DNA from: an uncultured Lachnospiraceae bacterium
Lineage (GTDB): Bacteria > Bacillota_A > Clostridia > Lachnospirales > Lachnospiraceae
NCBI GenBank assembly: GCA_902796775.1
Contig: CADBQK010000267.1
Span: 1 to 5,443 of the forward strand
Direction: 5' to 3'
Length of the DNA stretch: 5,443 nucleotides
The position numbers and the translations under genes were made by a program. The number at the start of each line of letters is the position of its first letter. Position 1 is the first letter of the stretch. The notes below the pieces were generated by a model that saw nothing but the letters and a program-made list of their open reading frames with translations, did no database searches and was not told where the DNA came from. Below are positions 2,361 to 3,869 of this stretch, in pieces.

Positions 2361-2458
2361 TATGTCTGTAAGGATAATCCAAAACAGATTCTCAGGATAT
2401 CGGATTTACAAAAATACACGAGGCGAGACTTTTTAATCTATTCTTAATTCTCCGGATA

Positions 2459-2486
2459 TTGATTTTTCCCGCAGAAGTGTTAGTAT
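2459..2486 (+). promoter_or_regulatory. Candidate sigma-A promoter (extended -10) for the riboswitch transcript
   Basis: TTGATT (2459-2464) resembles a -35 box. TAGTAT (2481-2486) with an upstream TG (2478-2479) forms an extended -10. The spacer is 16 bases. Transcription would start near 2492-2494, just where the aptamer's first stem begins, which supports the assignment. Each hexamer matches the consensus at only four of six positions. Confidence 0.5.
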
Positions 2487-2493
2487 TCTATCA

Positions 2494-2592
2494 ATAAAAG
2501 GGAGTAGCGCAGCGGCAGATATGCCGGACTTGAAAACGTCAGTACGATGTGGATACCCGCATCCGTATCAAGTGAGACCGCAAGACTTTTAT
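2494..2592 (+). promoter_or_regulatory. yybP-ykoY-type manganese riboswitch (aptamer)
   Basis: Conserved bases of the yybP-ykoY (Mn2+-sensing) RNA appear in order: AAAAGGGAGTAGC (2496-2508), the L3-like AACGTCA (2535-2541), and GTGAGACC (2572-2579). The fold agrees. P1 pairs ATAAAAG (2494-2500) with CTTTTAT (2586-2592), with GG (2501-2502) able to pair with CC (2578-2579). P2 is a 5-bp CGGCA/TGCCG hairpin with loop GATA (2513-2526). A 6-bp ACTTGA/TCAAGT helix (2528-2533 with 2567-2572) carries the asymmetric AAACGTCA internal loop. Above it is a GTACG/CGTAT plus ATGTGG/CCGCAT arm with one bulged C and an ATAC loop. In known members two loops dock to bind Mn2+ and close P1. An oddity is that GCAAGA (2580-2585) separates GAGACC from the rest of P1, whereas the usual form continues directly as CCUUU. 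No covariance search could be run. Confidence 0.75.
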
Positions 2593-2623
2593 CAGGGCAC
2601 GGGCTGTGGTAAAAGTCTTTTTT
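2584..2623 (+). terminator. Riboswitch-controlled intrinsic terminator
   Basis: GACTTTTATCA (2584-2594) pairs with TGGTAAAAGTC (2607-2617), an 11-bp stem with one G-U pair, followed by six T (2618-2623). The left arm contains CTTTTAT (2586-2592), which is also the 3' strand of the aptamer P1 stem, so P1 and this hairpin cannot form together. Ligand-stabilised P1 should block termination and turn the downstream hydrolase gene ON, the logic known for transcriptional yybP-ykoY switches. Confidence 0.8.
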
Positions 2624-2677
2624 CTTTACCCAGGCTTCCCGAGATAAAGTCGGAGAAATCGGAAAGGAGAAAAACCA

Positions 2678-3760
2678 GTGAAAAAGAAAACATCGAAAAA
2701 GAGGATAATACTGATCGTTCTTTTCTGCGTCATCATTCTGGCTGTTTGCGGCTGGGGGATGTTTTGTATAAAGATATACGATGAAAACTTTAATGTCCGG
2801 GGAGATAGCTACGAACCCCTGATGCTGCGCCTGGAGGATTTCAGGGGACTAAGGTGCTCAGAATATACGTTTCCTTCCGACCATGGACAGATGCTGGCAG
2901 GTTACCTTTACAGCGCCGGGGAAGATCAGCGCGGAGTTGTGGTCGTTGCCCACGGCTTTGGCGACGGAGGACACAACTCCTATATGGACGCCGCGAACTA
3001 TTTTGCCCAGCACGGCTGGTATGTTTTTGCCTATGATGCCACAGGGACCGATCAGAGTGAAGGCGATGGTGTAGGCGGTGTTCCGCAGGGCGTGATAGAT
3101 CTTGATCATGCCATTTCGTTTGTTGAGGCGGATGAAGACCTTTCCAATCTCCCCATTGTTCTTTTCGGACATAGCTGGGGCGCGTACAGTGTATGCAGTG
3201 TGTTGAACTATCATCCTGAGGTAAAGGCTGTCATTGAATGCTCAGGCTTTAACAGCTCATCGGATATGTTTGAGTCCGGCGGAAAATCGCAGGCTGGGGG
3301 ACTGATTTATGCCATGACACCCTTTGTGAAGCTCTATGAGCGGGTAAAATATGGGAAATATGCAGAAAAAACCGCAATGGATGGCTTTGCATCTACAGAT
3401 GCGGCTGTGATGGTCGTTCACAGTGCAGATGATGACGTGATAGAAATCGGGTACGGATATGATAAATACTATAAGAAATATAAGGATGATGCCCGTTTCA
3501 CCTTCCTCAGATTTGAGGACAAAGGCCATAATAATATTCTCAATGACCCGGAAGATACCTACAAGGATGAGTTTAATGCCAAATTCGATCAGTGGCTTGA
3601 GAGCCTGGATTACGATTATAAGGCAGAAGAAAACAAGGAGCGTTTCATAGAGGAAAAAGCGGAATATATTATGCAGAATCTGGACCACGCCAGATGGAGC
3701 AGCCGTTTGGATGAAGAGCTGTTCTCTTCGTTTTTGGCGTTCTACAATAATGCGATATAG
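2678..3760 (+). CDS. Membrane-anchored alpha/beta hydrolase
   Basis: A 360-residue protein with a lysine-rich N-terminus (MKKKTSKKR) and one hydrophobic segment at about residues 9-32. It is probably a signal anchor placing the catalytic domain outside the membrane. The fold is an S33/Hydrolase_4-like alpha/beta hydrolase: strand and oxyanion region VVVVAHGFGDGG (87-98), strand VFAYDATGTDQSEG (116-129), nucleophile elbow GHSWG with Ser166, acid-residue strand VMVVHSADDDVI (Asp251-253, Asp252 aligning best), and His284 in GHNNIL. The triad is therefore complete. The substrate is unknown; esterase, lipase and peptidase activities are all possible. A charged helical C-terminal extension (about 312-360) follows. 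The GTG start at 2678 has AAGGAGA (2664-2670) 7 bases upstream. It is alone in its transcription unit, behind a Mn2+-type riboswitch and ahead of a strong terminator, so manganese-dependent expression is inferred. Confidence 0.85.
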   Translation: MKKKTSKKRIILIVLFCVIILAVCGWGMFCIKIYDENFNVRGDSYEPLMLRLEDFRGLRCSEYTFPSDHGQMLAGYLYSAGEDQRGVVVVAHGFGDGGHNSYMDAANYFAQHGWYVFAYDATGTDQSEGDGVGGVPQGVIDLDHAISFVEADEDLSNLPIVLFGHSWGAYSVCSVLNYHPEVKAVIECSGFNSSSDMFESGGKSQAGGLIYAMTPFVKLYERVKYGKYAEKTAMDGFASTDAAVMVVHSADDDVIEIGYGYDKYYKKYKDDARFTFLRFEDKGHNNILNDPEDTYKDEFNAKFDQWLESLDYDYKAEENKERFIEEKAEYIMQNLDHARWSSRLDEELFSSFLAFYNNAI

Positions 3761-3835
3761 GGAATGACTTGTTCCACCCTGAGATTTTCAATGAGTTACT
3801 GATATAGTATAAAAGAACAAGCTTACTTTATTTGG

Positions 3836-3869
3836 GTCCCCCTGGAATATTGTTCCAGGGGACTTTTTT
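3836..3869 (+). terminator. Intrinsic terminator after the hydrolase gene
   Basis: GTCCCCCTGGAA (3836-3847) pairs with TTCCAGGGGAC (3853-3863), an 11-bp GC-rich stem with one bulged C and loop TATTG, followed by six T (3864-3869). It lies 75 bases after the hydrolase stop and closes that one-gene unit. Confidence 0.9.

Follow-up and report, generated by a model that had tools for sequence, protein, structure and literature searches.

Organization of the locus

The window, by which we mean the whole 5,443-nt stretch of DNA analyzed here, carries on its forward strand a yybP-ykoY-type leader RNA with an intrinsic terminator and, downstream, a gene encoding a predicted membrane-anchored alpha/beta hydrolase. 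The features of this unit are as follows, where R1 denotes a covariance model and protein X a small protein, both described below.

2459..2486, + strand: candidate promoter, TTGATT (2459-2464), a 16-nt spacer and TAGTAT (2481-2486), read from the sequence, with a start near 2493
2494..2592, + strand: yybP-ykoY-type aptamer (R1 score of 85.6 bits, fold covariation, and core residues as in PMC6754395)
2494-2500/2586-2592, + strand: aptamer helix P1.1
2501-2508, + strand: aptamer loop L1, GGAGUAGC, from the R1 alignment
2513-2516/2523-2526, + strand: aptamer hairpin
2528-2533/2568-2573, + strand: aptamer helix P2
2537-2541, + strand: aptamer CGUCA, in which A2541 is the discriminator adenosine
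2546-2552/2557-2563, + strand: aptamer helix P3
2580-2585, + strand: aptamer GCAAGA, from the R1 alignment
2582..2626, + strand: intrinsic terminator, a 13-pair stem (2582-2594/2607-2619) and U tract, from the minimum free energy (MFE) fold
2639..2685, + strand: junction zone, in which leader-type similarity stops and hydrolase-type similarity starts
2663..2669, + strand: ribosome binding site AAAGGAG, read from the sequence and aligning with the AAAGGAG of the protein X leader in genome G403
2678..3760, + strand: alpha/beta hydrolase gene, GTG start, 360 aa, with a predicted N-terminal helix anchor and Ser166/Asp251-252/His284
3839..3861, + strand: terminator at the end of the unit, with 10 pairs and then ACTTTTTT

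The candidate promoter agrees with the consensus at 8/12 positions, which is below the 9/12 threshold of the promoter listing, and it is not entered there. The stem of the leader terminator is formed by AAGACTTTTATCA and TGGTAAAAGTCTT and is followed by the tail TTTTCTTT. The RNA start at position 2494 in the initial annotation is exact for P1.1, and its statement that the hydrolase is the sole gene between the switch and the next terminator was borne out, with one large open reading frame (ORF; 2678-3760) ahead of the terminator at 3839-3861.

The upstream part of the window contains a RepA_N/DUF6017 replication-type gene (405-1526) and a second ORF (1565-2029) that repeats its C-terminal part with 74% identity over 136 residues. 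This partial duplication of a replication-type gene suggests a mobile element. A plasmid match for positions 2400-3800 was not found.

Identity of the leader RNA

Judged from its sequence, the leader RNA looks real as a riboswitch of the manganese type. The initial annotation had placed such an RNA directly upstream of the anchored hydrolase, and this assignment is supported by the R1 score, the L1 and L3 motifs, covariation, and the overlap of the aptamer with the terminator. The search that it had proposed as a check, Infernal with Rfam RF00080, came out negative: cmscan of the whole window gave no match at E≤1, and positions 2440-2700 gave none at E≤10. The top Rfam match in 2440-2700 is the streptococcal “sRNA” SSRC10 (RF02617), and this match is weak (17.5 bits, E 0.4). 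The window RNA is not filed as a member of RF00080, since no match over the gathering cut-off of 45 bits was obtained. When applied to Escherichia coli K-12, RF00080 scores the mntP leader at 41.6 bits, short of the same cut-off, and leaves alx unlisted at E≤0.5; because the model under-scores the former and omits the latter, its miss in the window says little. Among 14 named control genomes, RF00080 matches occur in 5 and exceed the cut-off in 2. A scan of 20 related loci at E≤2 labelled none as RF00080, and RF00080 was likewise missing from all six genomes with close hydrolase relatives, five of which were matched by R1. SSRC10 matches 2/20 relatives of the window RNA, weakly (35.4 and 33 bits). 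As an observation in its own right, the poor sensitivity of the Rfam 15 RF00080 model to mntP and alx means that many members may be overlooked when it is used for surveys.

The R1 model was built from 50 MAFFT-aligned Lachnospiraceae relatives with the window excluded. The training pattern, GGGAGTAGC..CGTCA..GCAAGAC, occurs at 51 places, of which 50 were modelled and one, in G120, was left out; it is present in 45/299 genomes of the family of Lachnospiraceae bacterium NK4A179 (G005, L018), while the reversed control pattern was found in none of the genomes listed. The training RNAs were chosen by motif, so that invariance of the motif among them is circular. On the window, R1 scores 85.6 bits (E 2e-15; 711 kb from 92 sources searched). 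In 32 kb of E. coli DNA around alx and mntP, it returns only two matches at E≤10, both weak, and these are the mntP leader (20.4 bits, E 0.011) and the alx leader (15.5 bits, E 0.13). Thus R1 picks out, if weakly, the leaders of established members, which points to a common fold, and the covariation concurs. Within the family, R1 matches are found in 159/397 genomes.

Viral contigs pulled by the motif pattern (IMG/VR, L001-L011) all match R1 (11/11, 35-49 bits), with an additional weak match in L002 (E 0.23). Contig L001 also has a weak RF00080 match (23.1 bits), and the next ORF is a Pfam TerC protein. The manganese-type leaders on these contigs each lie directly 5′ of an ORF judged by eye to be TerC-like. 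The ORFs come in two forms, one of which is confirmed by Pfam; a 70-residue piece of the other gave no Pfam hit.

Covariation and folding energy were examined separately. Across the 50 relatives, the proposed fold has a covariation score of 0.380 versus 0.153 for shuffled alignments, with 0/500 shuffles as high, and 88.0% of cells in the proposed helices are paired versus 73.5% after shuffling. The MAFFT alignment was not fitted to the helices, though the structure was drawn by eye from the same alignment. The MFE of the leader with its terminator (2490-2635) is unusually low (z = -3.69, 0/200 shuffles as stable). The aptamer alone (2491-2598) has a stability ordinary for its composition (z = -1.55, 19/200 shuffles as stable), so that the stability of the leader comes mostly from the terminator, and thermodynamics alone cannot prove the aptamer.

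The core residues of the class are present in the window, namely L1 with its conserved A10 context (GGAGUAGC, 2501-2508), the 3′ partner GCAAGA (2580-2585), and, within CGUCA (2537-2541), the L3 discriminator adenosine equivalent to A41/A48. For the Lactococcus lactis and Xanthomonas oryzae structures, PMC6754395 describes an L3 adenosine that is invariant and a contact made by A10 of L1. A target in Mn2+ transport or homeostasis, a usual but non-defining trait of the class, is not what is found here, as the gene behind the window RNA encodes a hydrolase. A tRNA-like reading of 2501-2535 was rejected; ARAGORN finds no tRNA.

Terminator overlap and predicted switching

The 3′ strand of P1.1 (2586-2592) sits within the 5′ arm of the 13-pair terminator (2582-2619). 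The terminator and the folded aptamer are therefore mutually exclusive, and the strand common to both predicts an ON switch for Mn2+. Without metal, the P1.1 3′ strand would pair downstream into the terminator, and transcription would stop near 2620. Mn2+ bound between L1 and L3 would hold P1.1 so that the terminator could not form, and RNA polymerase would then read through into the hydrolase gene, giving a metal-ON transcription switch. Both Mn2+ as the ligand and this direction of control are what we infer for the window RNA from its sequence. Forcing P1.1 in 2491-2625 costs ~14 kcal/mol relative to the free fold, as expected of a switch that needs its ligand and co-transcriptional timing.

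This overlap is widespread in the RNA group. The group was surveyed at 169 loci (among the matches listed, covering 89 of 90 that were additional, with one place in G120 left out), from which 20 duplicate or identical loci were removed to give 149, 148 of them followed by an ORF. A terminator stem of at least 8 pairs that starts in the AAGAC segment and has 4 or more T among the 8 bases after it is found in 133/149 loci, and 125 of these stems include the P1.1 3′ strand; the same criterion finds 8/145 in a control region further downstream. A precedent exists in L. lactis, where, according to PMC11087558, the P1.1 3′ segment passes to the terminator without ligand in an antitermination layout, and an A41U mutant loses Mn2+ binding. 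A review of Clostridioides difficile riboswitches (PMC11477304) terms the class OFF switches, a description that does not fit the layout of the window.

Target genes and L3 variation in the RNA group

The target of each switch was taken as the longest ORF starting within 700 nt, a rule by which a few labels may be wrong, and labels were assigned after clustering by similarity, with one or two members of each cluster scanned against Pfam. The 148 ORFs comprise 47 P-type ATPases, 23 copies of protein X, 23 SPFH/flotillin proteins, 15 Na/Ca exchangers, 8 OadB, 4 YccF, 3 CNNM/CorC and 3 CitMHS/ArsB-like proteins, and 22 others. Protein X has ~140 residues, is encoded, for example, at L152, L263 and L015, and gave no Pfam match in the two members scanned. 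The statement in the initial annotation that members of the class mostly control exporters is thus incomplete for this group: it describes 62/148 loci, which precede P-type ATPases or Na/Ca exchangers, and not the other 86, of which 41 precede SPFH, OadB, YccF, CNNM or CitMHS-like proteins. We found no discussion of this riboswitch with SPFH/flotillin genes or in Lachnospiraceae in the open-licence literature covered by our searches.

The metal-sensing loop varies with the class of the downstream gene. An L3 that is one nucleotide shorter (3-nt form) is found in 21/27 X/YccF loci versus 0/62 loci with P-type ATPases or Na/Ca exchangers, and also in 4/23 SPFH loci and 10/22 other loci. The SPFH loci mostly have CGUCA-nRAC (15/23), and the P-type ATPase and Na/Ca exchanger switches have nUAC in 45/62 cases. 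Because loci from within a genus depend on one another, the Fisher value for this association cannot be read as a true probability, and contrasts within single genomes are the stronger argument. Of 18 genomes holding both X/YccF and P-type/Na-Ca loci, 14 show the L3 contrast, and by the rule used none is seen in G155, G185, G197 and G346. The discriminator adenosine is replaced by U (CGUCU) in 3/149 loci (L179, L180 and L186), two of which precede protein X and one an unassigned gene. A possible but doubtful interpretation is that the group includes a variant subclass whose L3 has been re-shaped according to the target gene, maybe for another ion or another set-point, and which serves membrane maintenance rather than Mn2+ export. 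If this is true, the window hydrolase would have joined a wider membrane regulon of this RNA family, with its own loop in the canonical form, UCA-GUAC.

The hydrolase and its association with the switch

The product of the gene at 2678-3760 matches Pfam Hydrolase_4 at 57.3 bits against a cut-off of 27. The catalytic triad had been described as intact, and indeed an alignment of 21 sequences shows no variation at Ser166 (in GHSWG), Asp251/252 or His284. A structure model of moderate quality (pLDDT 70.7) predicts a helix at residues 7-38, whose hydrophobic sequence suggests that it is a membrane anchor. Fold matches are to esterases, lipases and S9 peptidases with 12-20% identity among the matches listed. 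With 1755 proteins at E≤1e-20, the family is a large one. Carriage of the hydrolase by a phage was rejected, as a profile search of viral sequences yielded no confirmed relative.

The initial annotation had made the presence of the RNA upstream of hydrolase homologs a test of its reading, and the outcome went against a conserved link: relatives number at least 387, and among the 80 best of them, a set that does not include the 98% identical P0001, none carries an R1 match at E≤10. Of these 80, 77 have at least 400 nt of upstream sequence. A crude regex for the RNA also gave 0/80, in agreement with the covariance model. In the opposite direction, no hydrolase relative was found behind the surveyed switches (0/148 ORFs, for loci among the matches listed) or in two further ORF sets (0/28 and 0/18). 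Among the 38 genomes in which a hydrolase relative lies, an R1 match is also present in 16, and in all 13 of these in which both places were located the two are on different contigs, though many contigs are short. Within the genus of G403, 12/13 genomes have R1 matches and 3/13 have the hydrolase. The proposed link between metal status and envelope hydrolysis therefore stands as a prediction for this locus and does not extend to a conserved link (0/80, 0/148). From these comparisons, the pairing of switch and hydrolase looks like a local swap and not like a conserved partnership.

Origin of the leader

The closest leader found to that of the window precedes protein X in G403. A blastn match between the two covers 2493-2638 (77%) and similarity stops at 2638, with 103/137 aligned columns of 2493-2626 identical. 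With the terminator included, the G403 leader tops all 149 surveyed leaders (189 versus 162 for the next); in the aptamer part alone its margin is small (132 versus 130 for a flotillin leader). The 15 RNAs nearest to that of the window among the 149 are followed by flotillin and other genes, and none precedes a P-type ATPase or Na/Ca exchanger. The flanks resemble those of the G403 leader weakly (32/54 columns upstream and 29/52 after the terminator), each above 200/200 shuffles, and at the place equivalent to the candidate promoter the G403 leader has TTGATA/TACAAT. The ribosome binding site agrees as well, a match that function alone could explain. On the other side of the junction zone, DNA similarity to hydrolase relatives starts at 2669-2685 in most matches, the exceptions being 2657 (L032) and 2662 (L042). 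The G403 hydrolase is on another contig and lacks the RNA. Separately, the stretch at window positions 2441-2490 resembles a site in G403 contig C84 (84% identity across 51 nt), one at which R1 has no match.

In L015, which has the highest identity (86%) among the relatives listed, protein X lies immediately 5′ of the hydrolase; no other locus among the 80 for the hydrolase has it (1/80). The L015 protein X (2816-3226) is 80.8% identical to that of G403 over 120 residues, and no R1 match was found in L015 despite the adjacent protein X and hydrolase. In G434, tblastn and blastn found neither protein X nor a window-like leader beside the hydrolase. An intact switch-X-hydrolase operon was sought in the L015, G403 and G434 loci and was not found; having been seen in no locus, such an ancestral operon remains conjecture.

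These observations favor, with a probability of roughly 0.7, the reading that the window RNA belongs to the yybP-ykoY (Mn2+) class as a divergent representative from Lachnospiraceae, that it acts as a metal-ON switch, and that the hydrolase came under its control recently and locally. A leader of the kind preceding protein X in G403 would have been joined, near the ribosome binding site and start codon, to a hydrolase gene that is seen elsewhere without such a leader. The arrangement suggests either that the leader was captured or that protein X, once situated between the two, was lost; switch and hydrolase were probably joined locally, by leader capture, the evidence for which is the leader of a single relative (G403).

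Alternative explanations

The pairing could instead be a selected functional circuit in which the host needs an envelope hydrolase at high Mn2+ and has kept the switch for that purpose. The unit is intact throughout, from switch and terminator to ribosome binding site and hydrolase; the RNA group often has targets that are neither cation ATPases nor exchangers (86/148); and, according to PMC10550928, a gene under a Mn riboswitch, meeY, acts in exoenzyme metalation in Bacillus subtilis. Against this, the RNA lies upstream of 0/80 hydrolase relatives (best 80 of at least 387), a relative follows 0/148 switches, and we saw no sign that the hydrolase uses metal; we regard such a circuit as unlikely. 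It is less likely again that the window RNA represents a variant that responds not to Mn2+ but to another divalent ion or to a signal of envelope stress. The absence of P-type ATPases and Na/Ca exchangers behind its 15 nearest RNAs would suit this explanation, as would the variation of the metal-sensing loop by gene class and the change of the discriminator from A to U in three relatives, but the window loop is the canonical UCA-GUAC, as in most P-type/Na-Ca switches (nUAC in 45/62), it is similar to that of alx (UCA-UUAC), and A2541 is kept.

Finally, the RNA could be a short terminated sRNA rather than a riboswitch for the hydrolase, which would then have a promoter of its own. The top, though weak, Rfam match (SSRC10, 17.5 bits) is recorded in PMC3675131 as a terminated sRNA of Streptococcus pyogenes. 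Against this, the same source places SSRC10 just 5′ of a “putative calcium transporter” gene, where a terminated riboswitch leader would be expected to lie, and the promoter listing for the window has no entry on the + strand between 2490 and 2678. The sRNA explanation is very improbable, and SSRC10 itself may be a misfiled Mn riboswitch leader. Returning to the favored reading, of a manganese-type switch with a locally acquired hydrolase, the locus exemplifies a regulatory leader apparently transferred to a functionally unrelated gene. Lachnospiraceae are a major bacterial family of gut and rumen, and the targets of this RNA in them include flotillins, OadB, YccF and protein X. If Mn2+ sensing is true, their manganese regulon would be larger and less transporter-centred than Rfam annotation shows.

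Comparison with known systems

The window leader is like the L. lactis yybP-ykoY Mn2+ riboswitch in having the P1.1 3′ strand within the terminator and a transcriptional ON architecture, as described for the latter RNA in PMC11087558 and PMC6754395. Both have L1 and an L3 with the invariant adenosine, the L3 being UCA-AUUC in L. lactis and UCA-GUAC in the window. The window differs in its A/U-rich P1.1 (AUAAAAG/CUUUUAU) and in the gene located 3′, which is the hydrolase. We take the L. lactis RNA to have CCG followed by G where the window has CCG followed by U, and presumably a U.G pair below L3 that is replaced in the window by an unpaired base, so that affinity could differ.

E. coli alx shares CGUCA-nUAC-GAUGUG...AUCCG with the window. 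The alx and mntP leaders are unlike the window in their low R1 scores (15.5 and 20.4 bits), and their genes are annotated as Mn2+ exporters. The hydrolase, for its part, resembles monoglyceride-lipase-like/S33-type alpha/beta hydrolases in Hydrolase_4, the GHSWG nucleophile elbow and the fold, and is set apart from them by its extra N-terminal helix and by low identity (12-20% in the matches listed). SSRC10 is filed by Rfam as an sRNA and matches the window weakly (17.5 bits). Martin et al. reportedly described, in 2019, a Streptococcus Mn riboswitch located 5′ of an Mn2+/Ca2+ ATPase, and we infer that SSRC10 is this same riboswitch.
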